The notes under the pieces were generated by a model. That model did not search any database, had not been told where the DNA came from, and worked only from the letters and a program-made list of their open reading frames with translations. A program made the position numbers and the translations under genes. From positions 1 to 35,090 of the IMG/VR virus record IMGVR_UViG_3300031707_000087: a stretch of 35,090 nt of DNA; one strand, written 5' to 3'. Position 1 is the first letter of the stretch. The number at the start of each line of letters is the position of its first letter. This stretch comes from a virus. Below are positions 2,190 to 35,090 of the stretch, piece by piece.

Positions 2190-2747
2190 ATGACCGCCCC
2201 CCAGTCTGCCCTCTTTAAGCACCGTAAGGCCCGCGGCATCCGTCAACTGGACCTTGCGCGGTTGGCCCACGTCGCTCAGGCGGATCTCGTGTCATTCGAG
2301 AAGGGGAGGCGACTCCCCTCCATCGGCCAAGCGAAGCGGATCGCCCTGGCCCTCGGATTCAAAGTCAAGGCGTTATTCACCGATGGATTCCGAGAGGAGA
2401 GCAAGAACACGGGACGGCCAATCAGGAACTACATGCCGCCGGCGCCGGTCCCGCGCCCGAGTATCGATCCGCGTCCGGTCGGATCGCGCCGCCTCATCTG
2501 CCCCCACTGCGGGGCGTCTAGTTACAGCCTGTTCGAAGGCGATATCCCGGGGCTGGCATTCAAGTGCTTCTCATGCGGGCGGGCGTTTGGGATGGACGGG
2601 AGCATGGCGGAGACGGTAACGCCGAAGGCCGTGCACGACAGGCCGTGTTATGCCAGGGACCGGGAGGATTCGCTCGTGACGAAAGACCGGAAGTCGGCCG
2701 GCCAGCGGAGACGGCACGCCAGGGAAAGGGCAGAGGCTAAACAATGA
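2190..2747 (+). CDS. XRE-type HTH protein with zinc ribbon, 185 aa
   Basis: Two domains are visible. Residues 6-65 form a Cro/C1-type helix-turn-helix (FKHRKARGIRQLDLARLA, then the VSFEKGRRLPS turn). Residues 104-129 form a zinc ribbon with the pairs CPHC (C104, C107) and CFSC (C126, C129). A basic tail ends RQRRRHARERAEAKQ. The design suggests a DNA-binding regulator, or a DNA-binding protein that contacts another nucleic acid or polymerase through the ribbon. It overlaps the next gene (XRE/sigma region 4) by ATGA, so the two are probably made in fixed ratio. The ribosome site is a modest TAGGAAAG before ATG 2190. Confidence 0.75.
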   Translation: MTAPQSALFKHRKARGIRQLDLARLAHVAQADLVSFEKGRRLPSIGQAKRIALALGFKVKALFTDGFREESKNTGRPIRNYMPPAPVPRPSIDPRPVGSRRLICPHCGASSYSLFEGDIPGLAFKCFSCGRAFGMDGSMAETVTPKAVHDRPCYARDREDSLVTKDRKSAGQRRRHARERAEAKQ

Positions 2748-3334
2748 GGGTTAGGGCCATTGTTCGATTCAAGAACGATAACTTCGCCCAGGCTAGGAAA
2801 GCGGCCGGATTTCCGACGATAACGGCACTTAGTTTGGCTACTGGAATCTCTGCGGCAACACTTTGTAATTATGAAAATTTTAGAGAATATCCACGGACCC
2901 GTCCCGGACGAGCGGGGCGACCAATATCTAAACATGTCTCTATTCTTGAAGCCGCTTTACACCTGCCCATTGAAATGCTTTTCGATGAATTCTATCAACA
3001 AGCTGTCGACGAAAAACGCGGACGACCGATTGAGTTTATAAAAGATATTTTGGAATTGCCGGAATGGGCGACTCTAAAGGGTCTCTTGCCCGCATATGAC
3101 AAAGAGGCTGAATTACGGGAACAAGTCGGAGAGGCCCTGAAATCGCTGACGGATCGCGAGGCCTACGTCCTCAAAATGCGATTCGGCCTGGAAGACGAGG
3201 ACGAGTACGGCTTGAAAGAGGTAGGCGATCAGTTAAACCTTTGCAAGGAGCGTATCAGCCAGATCGAGCGCAAGGCCCTGCGCAAGCTCCAGCATCCGAG
3301 CCGCGGCCGCAATCTAAAATCCTTCTGGAGATAA
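2744..3334 (+). CDS. fusion of XRE-like HTH to sigma-70 region 4, 196 aa
   Basis: Residues 13-80 resemble a Cro/C1 helix-turn-helix (QARKAAGFPTITALSLATG, then ISAATLCNYENF). Residues 127-196 closely match sigma region 4 of housekeeping RpoD: ALKSLTDREAYVLKMRFGL, then LKEVGDQLNLCKERISQIE, then KALRKLQHPSRGRNLKSF. Sigma regions 1-3 are absent, so it cannot act as an ordinary sigma factor by itself. At the minus-35 recognition helix, K168, E169, R170, S172 and Q173 stand where E. coli RpoD has R584, E585, R586, R588 and Q589. It probably binds TTGACA-like DNA and/or the core flap as a transcription regulator; that role is inference. It overlaps the preceding XRE gene by ATGA. Confidence 0.8.
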   Translation: MRVRAIVRFKNDNFAQARKAAGFPTITALSLATGISAATLCNYENFREYPRTRPGRAGRPISKHVSILEAALHLPIEMLFDEFYQQAVDEKRGRPIEFIKDILELPEWATLKGLLPAYDKEAELREQVGEALKSLTDREAYVLKMRFGLEDEDEYGLKEVGDQLNLCKERISQIERKALRKLQHPSRGRNLKSFWR

Positions 3335-26565: not shown

Positions 26566-28566
26566 TTACGCTTCGCCCCCCGCCATCTGGGCCATGAGGG
26601 CCTCCAGCAATTCAGGCGGGACACCCCCACCGCCCCCTCCATCCGGAGGAATCGGCATACCGCTGACGCCGGGAAGGGGAGCGGCCATCTCCGCCCCGGG
26701 AAGCGGGGCTGTGCCGGGGACGCCCGGCTGTGTCGGTTTCTCGACTGGAGACGGGGCCATCATAGCCAGGAACTCTTTATGCTGGTTGAGCCTCTGGATG
26801 ATGAATCCCTGCGTTGTTTCATCGAGCGACTCGAACTCCTCGCCCTTCCGAAAGTCGTTGAAGAACTTGTAGGAGAACTCATGGTTGTCCGACGGGTCGG
26901 CCGGAATGAATTTCTTCTTTGTGACCATCTGCTCGACGTGCCGTGTGCATTGGTACTCGTCGGCCTTGTCTTCCTTGAGCCAGCCCTCGACCCCTTTGAA
27001 GCGCATGATCTCGAGGGCCTGTTTCGCGTCGATGGCCCGCATCTCGACGAACTTGATGGCGATGTCCTCGCGCCGCTTCCGGGACGTGAAGATGTCGACA
27101 CCGGGAACGACCATGATGTCGGTTGAATCGCGGAGGTCCGAGCCGATGAACGACCGCACCGCCGGCAACTTGCCCTTCCCCAGGTTCTTGATGAGCCGCG
27201 GCTCCTTGTAGTGTTTCTTCGCCAGGGACAAGCGGACCCTCATGCAGTAGATGAGTTCGGAATCGATGTTGATGAGGCCGGGCTGCATGACGGAGGCATC
27301 CGCGCCCTTGAGGCTTTGAAAAAGCTGGTTGGAGGGCCGGGAGGCGTATTTCGGGAGTTGACCGTAGGAGGTTTTCCTGACCGATGTTTCTATTTCAAAC
27401 TCGCCCTCGAGCATCTGGCTATACCCGAGGCTTGACTCCGGGAGTGCCGGCGGATTCTGCCAATAGGGGGCCCCGACCCGAGGATTATAGGTGATGAAGT
27501 CGACGCCTCCCATGCGCTTGAAGGCCTGCTCGTCGCCGGGGCGGAGGGAGCCGAAGGGGAGAAGGCCCTTGGCCCGGAAATTCTGAAAATGCTCGTCGAC
27601 CATCGAAAGGTGGCGGTTGATCTGCCGCTGCGGGGTTTGACCGATGGCGACCATTGACTCGTCGAACTGCGTCCCGATAATGGGAATCCCGCTCTTGAAA
27701 TGCGCGTAGTTGCACTTCGCTTCCGGCGTCGGGTTGTCGCCGTTGTAGAGGATCATGTCGTTGGCGATGACCATGAACCGGCCCTTCGGCCTTTCGGCAT
27801 TGGCGAACTCCCAATACTCCTTCCTCACCGCCGACGGCTCCTTGGGCGTATCGATGCCGTGGCGCGTGAAACGGTTTTGCTCGAATCCTTGGTAGCCCTC
27901 GTTGCTGATGGAGTTCTTGTCGAGGCCGAAATCGAGCTCAATGGACCTCGTCGGGACCCGCTTCCCTTCGACGACGTATCGCCATTCCTCCCGGCTCATG
28001 GCGTGGGGGTCGGGCCGGAAATTGAATGGGCTGACAACGGCGAAGTCGAGATCCCCGTCGACGGGAACGACCTTGCCCTTCAGGATCGAGAGGCCTCGGA
28101 GGTTCTTGTTCCACCATTCCTTCCAGTAGCAGTTGCCGAGGAGGAGGATGAGGAGCTTCGCTTCCATGAGCTTGCGCTGTAAATCGCGGTCATGGTTCGT
28201 TTGCTCGATGATGATGGAGCCGACGGCGGCCGCCCGGCGGTCGTCGGACTCCTCGGTCGCCCCGATCGTGTAGAACTCGTGGTCGAAGATGAGGTCGCCG
28301 TGCTGCTGGCGGATCATCGGCAGGATGCGGTTGTAGACGTTCTTCACCTCACGGTCGACGAAGGCCGAGACATCGAACCACTCGGAATGCTTCTTGCCGG
28401 TGACGTAGCCGTACTGGTCGCCCTCGAACCAGCGGATGTACTCCTGGTACTTGTTGTAAAGCGACAGGAAGGCATGATTCTCCCACTCCTCCTGCGTCCG
28501 GTCGAAGGCCTCCTTCATCGGCCCCTCGGCCTTCGTCCCTTTGATCGGCGTGAACTTCTCGGCCAT
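26566..28566 (-). CDS. portal protein, 666 aa
   Basis: Portals form the dodecameric ring through which DNA enters and leaves the head. Size, position between terminase and scaffold/capsid, and sequence fit the large podovirus portal group (P22 type). Features are WFEGDQYGYVTG near residue 45, RILPMIRQQHGDLIFDHEFY, ERTNHD-like helix EQTNHDRDLQRKLMEAKLLI, CYWKEWWNKN, VVSPFNFRPDPHAMSREEWR, and a stem region EIETSVRKTSYGQLPKYASR. The last 60 residues are Pro/Gly-rich with a G6 run, probably disordered. The start lies 2 bases after the previous gene with a weak ribosome site (AAGGGG). Confidence 0.88.
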   Translation of the reverse strand: MAEKFTPIKGTKAEGPMKEAFDRTQEEWENHAFLSLYNKYQEYIRWFEGDQYGYVTGKKHSEWFDVSAFVDREVKNVYNRILPMIRQQHGDLIFDHEFYTIGATEESDDRRAAAVGSIIIEQTNHDRDLQRKLMEAKLLILLLGNCYWKEWWNKNLRGLSILKGKVVPVDGDLDFAVVSPFNFRPDPHAMSREEWRYVVEGKRVPTRSIELDFGLDKNSISNEGYQGFEQNRFTRHGIDTPKEPSAVRKEYWEFANAERPKGRFMVIANDMILYNGDNPTPEAKCNYAHFKSGIPIIGTQFDESMVAIGQTPQRQINRHLSMVDEHFQNFRAKGLLPFGSLRPGDEQAFKRMGGVDFITYNPRVGAPYWQNPPALPESSLGYSQMLEGEFEIETSVRKTSYGQLPKYASRPSNQLFQSLKGADASVMQPGLINIDSELIYCMRVRLSLAKKHYKEPRLIKNLGKGKLPAVRSFIGSDLRDSTDIMVVPGVDIFTSRKRREDIAIKFVEMRAIDAKQALEIMRFKGVEGWLKEDKADEYQCTRHVEQMVTKKKFIPADPSDNHEFSYKFFNDFRKGEEFESLDETTQGFIIQRLNQHKEFLAMMAPSPVEKPTQPGVPGTAPLPGAEMAAPLPGVSGMPIPPDGGGGGGVPPELLEALMAQMAGGEA

Positions 28567-28841: not shown

Positions 28842-29305
28842 GGCTGTCGCCTTTGCCAGTGGTAGTCGGTATGTTCCGAGTTATTGGGAAAGAGCCTCAG
28901 TTTTTTAATTCGGTCGTCGTCCTTTTTGCCCTTGTGGTGGACAACTTCCTCCGGCAAAAGAAACCTGCCCAGATGACCTTCCATTACTAGCCGGCCTCTT
29001 CTGACGTAGCCCCCGCCATTGGCGAAGGGATGATCTGGGCGTTTCAGCAAGACATATCCGCCGGCGATGGCCTTACCGCCCTTCCAATTAGAATTATTCT
29101 TCCCCGCGTGTGTTCCCGCCCGTGCATTCGGTCGAGGTCGTCTCATCTTTGCCTTCGCTTCTTCGGTGTGTTTGTGACCAAGGAGAGCCGCCGAAATCTT
29201 TGCACGATGCTCTGGGGTATGCTTGTGACCGAGATGCGCGGCCGACATCTTGGCGAGAGACTCCGGATTGTGCTTACGGCCCGCGAAGCCTTTGCTTATC
29301 GTCAT
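28829..29305 (-). CDS. HNH homing endonuclease with NUMOD3 repeats, 158 aa
   Basis: The N-terminal half contains repeated NUMOD3 DNA-binding motifs (HNPESLAKMSAAHLGHKHT, then PEHRAKISAALLGHKHT, then EEAKAKM). The C-terminal half is an HNH_3-type nuclease: LVMEGHLGRFLLPEEVVHHK with H123/H124, then IKKLRLFPNNSEHTDYH with H145. Such enzymes are free-standing or intron-borne selfish genes that cut phage DNA lacking them. It is inserted between terL and the portal side of the operon and is linked to terL by a TGATG overlap. The start is ATG 29305; a GTG two codons upstream is possible. No intron signature was seen around it. Confidence 0.85.
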   Translation of the reverse strand: MTISKGFAGRKHNPESLAKMSAAHLGHKHTPEHRAKISAALLGHKHTEEAKAKMRRPRPNARAGTHAGKNNSNWKGGKAIAGGYVLLKRPDHPFANGGGYVRRGRLVMEGHLGRFLLPEEVVHHKGKKDDDRIKKLRLFPNNSEHTDYHWQRRQPCSQ

Positions 29306-30897
29306 CACCACATCCCCCTGATCTGCTGTGCCGCGGTCGGCTGGTACGGCTGGAACTGCCGGTCCTTGGCGATCTGCTTGGCGAACTCGTTAAGCCGAAT
29401 GTCCTCCTCCGATGGAGCCTCGACCTCCTTCGGGATGAGGCGGAGATCGAGTTGATGAGCCAGGGTGTCGAGGATCCCAGTCTCCTGTCCTTTCTTTCCG
29501 CGCCGATAGCCGGTCAGCTGGGCTTCGTACTTGTCGAGGCCGGCCCGGCTCCTGACGCGCTGGCTCTCATAAAGGCCCTGGAGCGGCAGGATGCGGGCCT
29601 CGCGGGTCCGGCCGAGAAGCCGGAGCGGGACGAGCGGGATGTCCGGGCGGGAGACTTGGAGTTCCTGGACGAGATAGATGCCGTATTTTTCCCATTCGAC
29701 CCCGACCTGGTCGATGCCGCGGCCGTCCTTGAGGGACTTGTCGTAGAGGCCGCAGACTATTTCCTTGAGCGAGAGGACGTCGACCTTCATGTCGTCGGCG
29801 TAGTCGATGTGCATGATGCCGTCGGAGTCCCACTCGCAAATGGAGATCGCCGTCGGGGTGGATTGGGCGGAGGTCGTGCCGGAACAATCGACGACGATGT
29901 TGCGGGAGTAGTATTTCGGCAGCTCCTCGAAATGCTTGATGAGGAGGCCGGGGAAGACTTGTTCGTCGTCGGCGAGGATCTGGCCCTCGTACATCCTGGC
30001 GTAGATAAGCGACCCCTGCTTCCGATGCTTTCGGGCGAGATAGGCCTCGTCGAGCTTTTCGGGGAAATTCAACTCGCCCTTCTCGTTCCTGACGAAACAG
30101 GAGAAGACCGAATAGCCCGTCGTCGAGACAAACATGGCGGGGCTTTTGCGGTGGAGTTTGGAGTAGTCGAAATGTCCGTCCGGGTCGAGGATGAGACCAG
30201 ATATGTCGTCCGGTTCCCAGGGCGTCTCGAAAACCCACTCCCAGCCGCCCTCGGCGATGAGCGACTCGCCCTGCCGCCACCTTTTCATGGCCCATTTTCG
30301 GAGGTCGACCGTGGCCGAGTTGACCTCGTTCATCAGGTTGTCGTTCCAAATGCCAAGGTAGTGACGGCCAGTGAGAGACTTTCGAAGAGAACCCGTGTCG
30401 ATGCCGACCCGCCGCCAACGTATCTGCTCCGAGTTCCAGGCCTCGGCGTCAGCGCGTTTGGCTGGGACATAGCCGGAGAAGAACGCTTGGATGAGGTCGT
30501 TCGTCTCGACCTCGTACTCGATCTTCGTGATGTGTTCGATCGACAGTTTCTCGTCGCCCGTGACGATCCCCAGGAGGGCCTCGTCGGCGGCGTAGGAATG
30601 CTTGAGAAATTTCTGGATAAGGCCGCCACGGCCGATGGTCGACTTGAGAGAGTCTCGGCTCATCAGAAGGAGCTTCTGGAGGTTGGGGTCGGCCACCAGC
30701 CAATCGCAGAGCTTTCGGTGGATGCGATTGAGGTCGCGGTACTCGACTTTCTTGCCGCGCCTGAGGACGAAGGCGCAGACGAAGAAGAGGTCCTCGAGAG
30801 TACGCTCGATAAAATCCTTGGGCGACCGGATCTCCTCCGGAAGCCGGCCCGTCGAGGTCAGCTTGTCGATGTAGGCTTCCTGGTCGCGGAGCTTCAT
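29305..30897 (-). CDS. terL: terminase large subunit, 530 aa
   Basis: This is the packaging motor: an N-terminal ATPase and a C-terminal RNase H-like nuclease. The Walker A-like loop is SRDSLKST at residues 80-87, a form with an early Arg and K85/S86 as in other terminases. The Walker B region is probably HYLGIWNDNLMNEV at 179-192. Nuclease acidic residues are likely D337 (NIVVDCSG), E401 (VGVEWEKYG) and D477 (GILDTLAHQLD). A WRRVGIDTGSLRKSLTG region and FPGLLIKHF support the family. The length is normal. It overlaps the upstream micro-gene by 4 bases and the HNH gene downstream. Confidence 0.88.
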   Translation of the reverse strand: MKLRDQEAYIDKLTSTGRLPEEIRSPKDFIERTLEDLFFVCAFVLRRGKKVEYRDLNRIHRKLCDWLVADPNLQKLLLMSRDSLKSTIGRGGLIQKFLKHSYAADEALLGIVTGDEKLSIEHITKIEYEVETNDLIQAFFSGYVPAKRADAEAWNSEQIRWRRVGIDTGSLRKSLTGRHYLGIWNDNLMNEVNSATVDLRKWAMKRWRQGESLIAEGGWEWVFETPWEPDDISGLILDPDGHFDYSKLHRKSPAMFVSTTGYSVFSCFVRNEKGELNFPEKLDEAYLARKHRKQGSLIYARMYEGQILADDEQVFPGLLIKHFEELPKYYSRNIVVDCSGTTSAQSTPTAISICEWDSDGIMHIDYADDMKVDVLSLKEIVCGLYDKSLKDGRGIDQVGVEWEKYGIYLVQELQVSRPDIPLVPLRLLGRTREARILPLQGLYESQRVRSRAGLDKYEAQLTGYRRGKKGQETGILDTLAHQLDLRLIPKEVEAPSEEDIRLNEFAKQIAKDRQFQPYQPTAAQQIRGMW

Positions 30898-31094
30898 CCG
30901 AGCATCTCCCGGTTGAACTGCTGAGCGGCGAATTTACGGAAGTCGTGGTGGTAAATGAATTCTCTCCAGAAGGCTTGCCGCTTCCAGGAGGGCTTATCGA
31001 CCATGAGTTTGTCGGTTCGGCGAACGATCCCCCAGGCCCACCGCAACTTACGGAACCACCACCAGACCCTAAGCGCCTTGAATACTCGCCTCAA
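30894..31094 (-). CDS. Trp/Arg-rich micro-protein between terS and terL, 66 aa
   Basis: The start is a TTG (31094-31092) with AAGGAGG six bases upstream. Seven of 66 residues are Trp and many are Arg/Lys (MRRVFKALRVWWWFRKLRWA, then WKRQAFWREFIYHH). It overlaps terS by 26 bases and terL by 4. No family is recognised. It could be a terminase accessory, or a membrane-interfacial peptide given its amphipathic Trp/Arg content. Confidence 0.55.
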   Translation of the reverse strand: MRRVFKALRVWWWFRKLRWAWGIVRRTDKLMVDKPSWKRQAFWREFIYHHDFRKFAAQQFNREMLG

Positions 31095-31704
31095 GGACGG
31101 CCTCCTTCCTCATGCGACGGTATTTCCCGAGGGCTTCGTGATCGGCCGATGTCAGATGAATGGTCACAATGCGCTTATCGACCTGCTTATGGATCTTCGT
31201 CTCGGGCCGGAGGTCATGGAGGTCGATCGCCTCCCGAAGGAACCGGGCGATGGCGTTGTAGTCCTTGGGGATGTAGGCCGAGCCGTCCTTCCTCATCCTA
31301 GCCCCCGCCGTGGGATGCTCGGCCTCGACCCCCTCGGCGATGACCGTGGCGATCTTGTCGTAGCTGACCCCGGCCTTCTCCAGAGCCTCGGCGATGCGCT
31401 GGCGGATGAAGGGCTTGGAGAGCACGTTGTCGATGGCCTGGCCGCTTGTCGTGGGGGAGTAGCCGGCGGCGACGGCGCACGCGGCCTTCTTCGACGGATC
31501 GAGCTCGGCCTCGATGTAGTTCTTCATGGCGTCACGCTGGCGCATCGTCAAGAGCCGTATCTCGGACTTGGGGATCTTGCCGAGGAGTCCCTTGCGGCGG
31601 AGCTCCTCCTTTTTCGGCTTGCGGCCGCCGAAGCGATGGGACTTGCGATAATCTCTCGCCCCGACGATGACCGGGGTCCCGTCCTTCGCCTTCGTGATTC
31701 TCAC
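31069..31704 (-). CDS. terS: terminase small subunit, 211 aa
   Basis: It is the first gene of the late operon, just before terL. The central region has the DNA-binding helices of small terminases: LTMRQRDAMKNYIEAELDPS, then KKAACAVAAGYSPTTSGQAI and a helix with RQRIAEALEKAGVSYDKIAT. A basic N-terminus (RKPKKEELRRKG) precedes it. TerS recognises the viral packaging site. The start is GTG 31704 with GAGGAG seven bases before; the promoter lies about 50 bases upstream. Confidence 0.8.
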   Translation of the reverse strand: MRITKAKDGTPVIVGARDYRKSHRFGGRKPKKEELRRKGLLGKIPKSEIRLLTMRQRDAMKNYIEAELDPSKKAACAVAAGYSPTTSGQAIDNVLSKPFIRQRIAEALEKAGVSYDKIATVIAEGVEAEHPTAGARMRKDGSAYIPKDYNAIARFLREAIDLHDLRPETKIHKQVDKRIVTIHLTSADHEALGKYRRMRKEAVLEASIQGA

Positions 31705-31756
31705 TTTATCTCCTCACGACACGCTCCTGACTCGCAGTTCTCATACCATATCTATA

Positions 31757-31785
31757 ATAACACACGTTTAATATTACATTGTCAA
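31757..31785 (-). promoter_or_regulatory. leftward (late operon) promoter
   Basis: On the minus strand, TTGACA (complement of 31780-31785) is followed after 17 bases by TGTTAT (complement of 31757-31762), four of six matches to TATAAT. Other A/T-rich options (TATTAT, TATAGA) lie slightly further. It points at terS with a predicted leader of about 45 bases. It looks like a standard sigma-70 promoter. Confidence 0.6.
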
Positions 31786-31803
31786 GACGTGCTTTCTTGA
31801 CAA
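31779..31803. promoter_or_regulatory. operator-like inverted repeat over both minus-35 boxes
   Basis: TTGTCAAG 31779-31786 and CTTGACAA 31796-31803 form a perfect 8-bp inverted repeat with a 9-base spacer. Each arm contains the TTGACA of one of the two divergent promoters. A dimeric regulator bound here would cover both minus-35 boxes at once. Confidence 0.55.
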
Positions 31804-31825
31804 CAGGCGCTTTAGGGCCGATTAT
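31797..31825 (+). promoter_or_regulatory. rightward promoter P1
   Basis: TTGACA 31797-31802, a 17-base spacer and GATTAT 31820-31825 face right. The next gene's ATG 31832 lies only 7 bases after the minus-10, so the mRNA is predicted to be leaderless. The element is nearly a copy of the promoter at 33797-33825. Confidence 0.6.
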
Positions 31826-31831
31826 GTGAGG

Positions 31832-32047
31832 ATGAGCGAAGACAGAGCCCCTTACAAACGTCCCGGCCAGCCCGAAGAAAATTCTTTATTGGACCGCATG
31901 AGCCGCGCCCTTCAGGTTCACAAGGAATGGATCTGGAACGACGGCCTGAGGATCCTCAAGCTCGCCCACCGGATCGAGAACCTCGAAAAAGAGATGGCCG
32001 ACGTGAAGGGGATTCTCGAGCGAATCACCAAGCCGGGGGCGAACTGA
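31832..32047 (+). CDS. small helical protein, 71 aa, probably leaderless
   Basis: It begins MSEDRAPYKRPGQPEENSLL and ends in a coiled coil (AHRIENLEKEMADVKGILER). No family is recognised. ATG 31832 is chosen over GTG 31826 because the latter adjoins the predicted minus-10. No usable ribosome site precedes it, in keeping with a leaderless mRNA from P1. The stop overlaps the next start (TGATG). Confidence 0.6.
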   Translation: MSEDRAPYKRPGQPEENSLLDRMSRALQVHKEWIWNDGLRILKLAHRIENLEKEMADVKGILERITKPGAN

Positions 32048-33314: not shown

Positions 33315-33834
33315 GATTCAATAGTGAAAAGTTTAGAGATAGATTTTGATGAATGAAATTTTATTGGGAAAAAATAGTGCGGATGGAGCGAGGGTAATGT
33401 GTGAGGGGGGGGGGCTGTTTGAAAGTGTCCAGTGGGGGGGCCTTCGTTCTTCTTCATCGATGGGGACGCGCCGCGCCCGCCTGTCCTCTGCGGGATACAA
33501 TTCCCGGTCGCATAACAGAGATTATGTCCACTAAGCCCACGTAATAGACCCTCTCTCACTCATCCCGACCCGCTGGGGCCTCGCCTTGCCTTCATCCTCT
33601 GCCCTCTGCCGTTGATCGCCCGCTACCTGGACCCTCTCCCCGTACAACAAACCCTCACCCCCTCTCTTATATAATCTATTATATATAATATATAAGCCCA
33701 CATCATTAATATCTATATCTTTATTCTTTAACCTCTCCCTTTCTTTTCCATCCCTCAATAAATCTATAATTATCTCCCGCCCGGGATGTCCCCGGCTTGA
33801 CAATAGGACGCCCCCGCCCGATTATATATATGCC
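33315..33834. other. 520-bp non-coding region: G-tracts, pyrimidine tract, AT-rich palindrome
   Basis: Base use here differs sharply from the coding flanks. It holds a run of ten G (about 33405-33414) and another of seven G (33434-33440), then a pyrimidine-rich top strand (about 33545-33670). An A/T block at 33667-33735 follows, containing the perfect 14-bp palindrome TATTATATATAATA (33677-33690). Next come a small hairpin CCGGG-ATGTC-CCCGG (33781-33795) and a promoter. Open frames on either strand lack ribosome sites and read as low-complexity. A replication origin or packaging/regulatory region is the best guess. Confidence 0.5.
33797..33825 (+). promoter_or_regulatory. rightward promoter P2
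   Basis: TTGACA 33797-33802, 17 bases, GATTAT 33820-33825. It shares TTGACAA-Y-AGG, the C just before the minus-10 and GATTAT with P1 (31797-31825). The arm CTTGACAA of the P1 operator is also present at 33796-33803, but here without its inverted partner. The radC-like ATG 33835 is 10 bases after the minus-10. Confidence 0.6.
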
Positions 33835-34590
33835 ATGTATCAACCCACCTTAGAGGGAACCGGGACCCCTGAAACCCGGACAGGTCAACGGCCGCGCCCG
33901 TCGCGTCCGCTTCCCTTCACCCTTCGAATCGCCGAGCTGCCCGCGCCCATCGCCGGCGCCCCGGCCCTCCATTCCTCCGCCGAGGTCGTCGACTACATGC
34001 GACCACAGATCGGCGCTGCCGACCGCGAGACCTTCGTCATCCTCCACGTCGACTGTAAGAACCAGGTCCTCGACGTGGAGCTCGCCGGATTCGGTGACGT
34101 CGACTCCTCGGCCGTCTACCCCCGCCAGGTTTTCAAATCCGCCCTGCTGCGCAATGCCTGCGCTCTCATCTTCTGCCACAACCACCCCTCGGGCGACCCC
34201 GAGCCCTCTCTCTGCGACCGCGAATTGACCCGCGACCTCGTGACCGGAGCCCGCGTCCTCGGCATCAAGGTCCTCGACCATATCATCGTTGGCCGGACCG
34301 CCGCCTTTTTTTCTTTCGCGGACCAAGGCTTGATTGACGACTACGCCCTCGCCGCCCCCGCCCTCGGCCAGGTCCGCGAGGACCCCGACGACTACGACTA
34401 TGCGCCCGTCGATGGGGTCGGCTTCGCCGACCCGGGGGGCCGGTCCGCCCTGCGGGCCGCGACCAAGCGCAACCCCCGCAACCTGCCCTGCCCGACGTGC
34501 CACCGGGCGAACCGCCTGACCCCGCTCGACCGCGCCCACGGCTATCAGTGCGACGACTGCGCCGACCGGGCCGAAGGCTACGGGGATTGA
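33835..34590 (+). CDS. radC: RadC-family JAMM protein with C-terminal zinc ribbon, 251 aa
   Basis: The JAMM/MPN+ metal site of RadC (DUF2466) is complete: E65 in RETFVI, HNHPSGDPEPS with H115, H117 and D121, and the following LDHIIVG. The usual N-terminal HhH domain of bacterial RadC is replaced by about 35 low-complexity residues. The C-terminus adds CPTC (C219, C222) and CDDC (C239, C242), forming a zinc ribbon after an acidic DDYDY linker. RadC-like JAMM proteins are common in mobile elements; some are metal-dependent DNases or anti-defence factors, and the cellular role is unsettled. No ribosome site precedes ATG 33835, so translation may be leaderless. Confidence 0.82.
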   Translation: MYQPTLEGTGTPETRTGQRPRPSRPLPFTLRIAELPAPIAGAPALHSSAEVVDYMRPQIGAADRETFVILHVDCKNQVLDVELAGFGDVDSSAVYPRQVFKSALLRNACALIFCHNHPSGDPEPSLCDRELTRDLVTGARVLGIKVLDHIIVGRTAAFFSFADQGLIDDYALAAPALGQVREDPDDYDYAPVDGVGFADPGGRSALRAATKRNPRNLPCPTCHRANRLTPLDRAHGYQCDDCADRAEGYGD

Positions 34591-34592
34591 CC

Positions 34593-35090
34593 ATGAGCCG
34601 CACCGCCCACACGACCCCCGGCTTCCCCCGGACCCTTCGGGGTCCGAGGGGAGGCCGCCACATCGCCCCGACGCCCTGCGTTGAGTGCGTCGGCTTCACC
34701 TCCTGCCGCCCCGGGACGTGCTCGGCCCCCTACGGCTGCGAATCTTGGGTTGACGAGGACGGCCGCCGCGTCGACCTCGACGACCCGCTCGACCTGGCCG
34801 CCCTCGACGAGCCCGACCCGGACGACCCTAACCCCTACGCTCCCAGCCCGGCCACGCTCGCGGAGATCTCCGGCGTCTTCCCGACCGACGACAACGCCCC
34901 CGAGCCGGACGGGGGCGGGTTCACCTTCGAGACGATGGGCGGACTTGTCAAAGGAAAATGCGGGACTGCCGACCGCATAGCTGCCGCCCTCCCGGCGGTC
35001 GCCGCGGTCCTCGACGCGAATACCGAACCGCTCGACGCCGACCGGCCCGGGTCCATCGCCCACCGCTTGATTGAACTCAACGACCCCGGC
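34593..35090 (+). CDS. Cys-rich hypothetical protein, 3' end beyond window
   Basis: From ATG 34593, three bases after the radC-like stop, a frame stays open for 166 codons to the window edge. Five Cys fall in residues 29-50 (CVECVGFTSCRPGTCSAPYG, then C), a possible metal-binding knot. A very acidic stretch follows (VDLDDPLDLAALDEPDPDDP). The rest has SPATLAEISGVFPTDDNAPE and a helical part (TADRIAAALPAVAAVLDANT). No family is recognised, and the N-terminus lacks a clear ribosome site, so coupling to the upstream gene is likely. Confidence 0.55.
   Translation, partial: MSRTAHTTPGFPRTLRGPRGGRHIAPTPCVECVGFTSCRPGTCSAPYGCESWVDEDGRRVDLDDPLDLAALDEPDPDDPNPYAPSPATLAEISGVFPTDDNAPEPDGGGFTFETMGGLVKGKCGTADRIAAALPAVAAVLDANTEPLDADRPGSIAHRLIELNDPG

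Follow-up and report, generated by a model that had tools for sequence, protein, structure and literature searches.

A palindrome of two back-to-back -35 boxes at the terminase junction of a phage genome is probably the by-product of divergent promoters

At one junction in the viral DNA analysed here (the window, a stretch of 35,090 bases), two operons run away from each other, and the gap between them holds a perfect inverted repeat in which two TTGACA words face in opposite directions. The question this raises is whether the repeat is a regulatory site in its own right, as proposed in an earlier note that saw a compact switch in which one bound dimer would control both operons, or is what two neighbouring promoters leave behind in the DNA. 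We favour the second answer, with a probability of roughly 0.8, namely that two host promoters of the RpoD/SigA class stand back to back in a gap of 127 bp, and that the palindrome is their by-product, since the DNA between two promoters that both use the -35 word CTTGACAA is necessarily palindromic.

The palindrome and the genes around it

A motif scan of the whole window recovers TTGTCAAG-N9-CTTGACAA at 31779-31803 with no mismatches, so that the earlier claim of a perfect inverted repeat holding both TTGACA boxes is borne out, as is the sequence given for it; the arms are longer than had been supposed, with an inverted-repeat search giving perfect arms of 9 bp and 7 bp between them (TTGTCAAGA-N7-TCTTGACAA). 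The left arm, TTGTCAAGA, occupies 31779-31787 and the right arm, TCTTGACAA, 31795-31803, the first eight bases of the former and the last eight of the latter being found by the motif scan as well. With spacers of 17 bp, the two -10 boxes have their outer edges at 31757 and 31825, where the region originally singled out begins and ends.

Symmetry of this kind is common in the window. Perfect inverted repeats with arms of at least 8 bases and loops of 3-30 number 25, against 10-23 in ten shuffles, and one of such size, taken alone, is ordinary. When the 127-bp gap was shuffled 2000 times, an inverted repeat of this kind arose in 43 shuffles while the TTGTCAAG/CTTGACAA pair arose in none (0/2000), and the non-random signal is thus the pair of -35 words rather than the symmetry. 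No second TTGTCAAG-N9-CTTGACAA site is found in the window at up to three mismatches, where shuffles lead one to expect 0.05. The exact octamer CTTGACAA occurs three times in the window and is a -35 box every time, in the two arms and once more at 33796.

This third copy belongs to a lone promoter on the plus strand (33796-33825), in which CTTGACAA is followed by GATTAT at 17 bp upstream of a RadC-like gene, and no inverted partner was found for it. Because it lacks a partner, the C and the A that extend TTGACA can be assigned to this phage's promoter word, and a dimer is unneeded to explain the extra bases of the arms. A comparison of the promoters at 31796 and 33796 led us to reject a shared motif beyond the hexamers (spacer identity 6/16, permutation p 0.32); the two have in common only the -35 and -10 words with their immediate neighbours. 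The region in which the lone promoter lies, 33315-35090, comprises a gap of 520 bp that includes an AT-rich tract (about 33660-33780), the promoter itself and the RadC-like gene in DNA of about 70% G+C; it may be of host origin, may have been acquired recently or may be where the early operon starts.

The gap that houses the palindrome has 43% G+C, against 53-63% for most of the genome, and separates a leftward gene starting at 31704 from a rightward gene whose ATG is at 31832. The leftward operon opens with a gene resembling that of the terminase small subunit (TerS; 31069-31704, minus strand), which begins with GTG and has GAGGAG upstream; its family match is weak (phrog_641, E 7.7e-4), and the protein can be aligned with the TerS of relatives. 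It is followed by the terminase large subunit (TerL; 29305-30897, minus strand; phrog_38, E 1.9e-30) and, farther on, by genes with family matches to portal, major head protein and endolysin. The rightward operon begins with a gene for a 71-aa protein (31832-32047, plus strand), the best match of which is a weak one to a coiled-coil DUF (E 0.073), and the small rightward ORFs up to 33314 gave no family match above its cut-off.

Searches with TerS and with the 71-aa protein returned no relative or one short match (L005), and an alignment search with TerS returned only three viral relatives, L003, L004 and L009. The same three were obtained from viral contigs in TerL searches (42-48% identity), together with L130, a TerL relative at 39% identity in a Candidatus Aminicenantes MAG; the TerS proteins of L003, L004 and L009 are 33-36% identical to that of the window. 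A much closer contig, L002 (TerL 99%), ends 13 bases before TerL, so that comparison of the gap covers distant relatives only. In all four relatives (L003, L004, L009 and L130), a small gene diverges from TerS. A TerL search across the phylum of genome G001 gave 12 of 396 genomes at E <= 0.001, with a strong match in G001 only (1.0e-192, the next being 1.7e-9), and the other 11 were left unused.

Predicted promoters facing both ways

On the rightward side, a consensus scan finds TTGACA-17-GATTAT at 31797-31825 (plus strand), with the -35 at 31797-31802, the -10 at 31820-31825 and agreement at 10 of 12 consensus positions; with its hexamers spaced within 16-18 bp, this is a convincing candidate promoter, predicted from sequence. 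The ATG at 31832 lies at about the expected transcription start, with the first base of GATTAT 12 bp upstream of it. In leaderless genes, according to one account (PMC3160421), the start codon follows a -10 signal, TANNNT, at a distance of about 12 bp, and because the ATG here stands at that distance from GATTAT, the mRNA of the 71-aa gene is probably leaderless; the hexamer here has G in place of the T, and there is an in-frame GTG at 31826. A further 10/12 promoter match in the window, at 27654-27681 (plus strand), runs antisense within the portal gene and is probably due to chance.

On the leftward side, an exact TTGACA (31780-31785, minus strand) is accompanied by two candidate -10 elements: TGTTAT at 31757-31762 (minus strand), with a 17-bp spacer and without the A at position 2, and an extended TGT-TATTAT at 31754-31762 (minus strand; TATTAT at 31754-31759), with a 20-bp spacer. 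One or other of these probably serves as the leftward -10, predicting a start at about 31750 or about 31747 and hence, probably, a leader of some 45 bases that carries a good Shine-Dalgarno sequence ahead of the GTG at 31704. As the -10 is poor at normal spacing, this promoter is predicted to be weaker than its rightward counterpart. The divergent promoters of the earlier note thus hold good as regards the junction of a leftward morphogenesis operon with a rightward operon and the -35 words in both directions; the leftward promoter as such was missed by consensus scans of the window, which report the rightward one.

It is possible, though we think it doubtful, that a full promoter exists on the rightward side only, with the leftward TTGACA lying idle and TerS being transcribed from the extended TGT-TATTAT or from elsewhere. 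Such a view fits the missing A in the hexamer at 17 bp, the 20 bp that part the TGn-bearing TATTAT from the -35 and the outcome of the scans, but it leaves unexplained an exact CTTGACAA, which is unlikely by chance given that no gap shuffle produced the motif pair. It also sits poorly with the relatives, of which L003 and L009 carry a TTGACA directed towards TerS and spaced from a -10-like hexamer by 18 and 17 bp, respectively; the corresponding word in L004 is TTGTCA, and no exact -35 word with this direction is found in L130.

The symmetry in relatives and in other viral contigs

A second alternative, which we consider unlikely, is that the palindrome is an operator whose arms are bound by a dimeric phage regulator that switches both operons, the protein with an HTH_3 domain encoded at 2190-2747 (E 7.9e-7) being an example of what might bind there. 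The perfect 9-bp arms speak for it, and the gene divergent from TerS matches a DNA-binding family in two relatives, a ribbon-helix-helix in L009 (344-493, E 1e-7) and a weak HTH in L130 (7073-7273, E 7.3e-5, below the curated cut-off), with none matched in the window, L003 or L004. The gap of L130, moreover, contains an inverted repeat that matches in size and spacing and differs in sequence, TTGATGAT-N9-ATCATCAA; its TTGA words, however, point inward rather than outward, and the gap, at 24% G+C, has five inverted repeats in all. We take this one as chance, although other readings could be made.

Against a single dimer acting as the switch stand several observations from within and beyond the window. 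The palindrome is single-copy, its half-site occurs elsewhere only as the partnerless -35 box at 33796, and no repeated or conserved operator that differs from the promoter words was found. Comparison with related phages, put forward at the outset as a check, goes against the proposal: the palindrome is present in one of five gaps, that of the window itself, and in none of those of L003, L004, L009 and L130, all distant relatives and three of them at 33-36% TerS identity. The nearest approach to it among them, in L009, is ATTTGTCAA and TTGACAGAT with 31 bases between. Two other features of these regions may be recorded, namely repeated CGTTTAAACACT words in the gap of L130 and, upstream of TerS in L009 (569-634), a 24-base direct repeat, 88% identical, with TTGACAGATAA in each copy.

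The spacing of the two octamers was followed in other viral contigs by two partly overlapping scans, the first over spacings of 0-30 (at least 120 stretches; 82 pairs among the 80 loci listed) and the second over spacings of 7-11 (at least 119 stretches; 80 loci listed). Pairs in the first scan are spaced by 1-30 bases, with a spacing of 9 in 2 of the 82 among the loci listed, and in the second the spacings 7, 8, 9, 10 and 11 account for 8, 4, 13, 25 and 30 of the 80 listed. Almost every spacing of the octamer pair is thus represented, and 9 is not favoured among the matches listed. Spacings of 21-25 are also common in the first scan, among the loci listed.

We counted as -10-like any hexamer with at least four of six consensus positions including A2 and T6, or with at least five of six, at 16-18 bp. 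On this basis, 40 of the 82 pairs listed in the first scan have a -10-like hexamer on both sides, 15 on one and 27 on neither, the figures for the 80 in the second being 26, 28 and 26, against 1, 10 and 69 at a control distance of 30-32; for the 13 pairs listed there with a spacing of 9, they are 3, 1 and 9. Deduplication among the loci listed leaves 38, 14 and 27 of 79 pairs in the first scan and 25, 19 and 23 of 67 in the second. Flanks with divergent ORFs are not enriched among the loci listed when pairs with both -10s are compared with those with none (6/33 vs 7/23 and 5/21 vs 6/21), so that an ORF check lends no support to labelling the -10-bearing pairs as promoters of divergent genes. 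A preferred base before CTTGACAA was also looked for and rejected, the 76 arms of 38 deduplicated pairs with both -10s having A in 36, T in 19, G in 11 and C in 10 among the loci listed; with bases so mixed, the ninth arm pair of the present palindrome reflects no general rule. At a spacing of 1 (TTGTCAAG-N-CTTGACAA), all five pairs among the loci listed (L017, L026, L049, L080 and L087) have a strong -10 on both sides, possibly a recurrent compact arrangement.

What of the switch as first conceived? Its positive evidence was the symmetry, and this is explained by the promoter words.

Possible regulators and known divergent promoters

A regulator of the junction may nonetheless exist, and the phage encodes a protein of interest in this respect. 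Adjoining the HTH_3 gene is that of a 196-aa protein (2744-3334, plus strand) with a C-terminal RpoD/SigA-like region 4, recognized by Pfam and by a structure-database match; residues 123-194 are close to RpoD (1tlh chain B, E 2.3e-17; Pfam Sigma70_r4, 1.4e-15), and the N-terminal part matches an HTH only weakly (E 0.17). The RpoD-like region 4 is the fold that reads TTGACA, and in E. coli sigma-70 contact with the -35 is made by E585 and Q589. In the phage protein, the recognition helix is CKERISQIERK, against TRERIRQIEAK in RpoD, presumably with the residues matching E585 and Q589 kept. Its region 4 makes the protein a candidate reader of TTGACA. That it reads both arms, possibly by dimerizing there, and blocks or recruits polymerase at both promoters simultaneously, which would make a region 4 domain into a switch that binds an operator, seems to us highly improbable. 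The records of L003, L004 and L009, which are possibly fragments, yielded no such protein, and an AlphaFold model of it made without an alignment was too poor to use (mean pLDDT 38.5).

There is next to no chance that the palindrome acts instead as a terminator or hairpin in RNA or DNA, as a perfect inverted repeat might, and we reject a terminator or structured RNA given that scans find no terminator-like site at it and no Rfam match within 31600-32000, and that both predicted starts are downstream of it, so that transcripts from them would not include it.

Back-to-back divergent promoters are familiar from PRM and PR of phage lambda, the starts of which are about 82 bp apart, with one transcript probably leaderless and with a set of three operators for the repressor that lie between the promoters and overlap them; the flanking genes are the repressor pair. 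The present junction resembles this arrangement in its back-to-back divergent promoters, in its predicted starts 82-85 bp apart and in a transcript that is probably leaderless; it differs in that no operator set was found in the gap and in being flanked by terminase genes and genes of unknown function, where lambda has its repressor pair.

The divergent promoters Pc and Pr of plasmid pLS20, too, lie close together and differ in strength, as is predicted here; they overlap, so that polymerase occupies only one at once, and their regulator, RcoLS20, has been demonstrated together with its looping and its repeated binding motifs (PMC4207663). By comparison, the motif at our junction is single-copy, and a demonstrated regulator is a feature of pLS20. 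The bidirectional promoters of Escherichia coli and Salmonella (PMC12825309, PMC10268837) share with it divergent transcription (predicted here) and symmetrical promoter words. Their -10 elements overlap, however, and only 7-25 bp separate their starts (PMC10268837), whereas the predicted starts here are separated by 82-85 bp, outside that range, and the symmetry resides in the -35 boxes.

Returning to the two host promoters that we favour, host polymerase with its primary sigma factor would start in either direction, the leftward promoter driving the terminase-led morphogenesis operon and the rightward promoter the small operon. With predicted starts at about 31750 or 31747 and at 31832, 82-85 bp apart, two polymerases would probably exclude each other at the junction, in line with what is said of overlapping promoters (PMC4207663). 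The promoters would compete weakly, and perhaps negligibly if basal activity is weak, as reported for five tested bidirectional promoters in which basal transcription was too low for competition (PMC12825309).

More generally, a palindrome made of two back-to-back -35 boxes should not, on that ground alone, be read as an operator. For the little-known phage group to which this genome belongs, the junction probably controls the whole morphogenesis operon, and the protein with region 4 provides a concrete candidate for a regulator.
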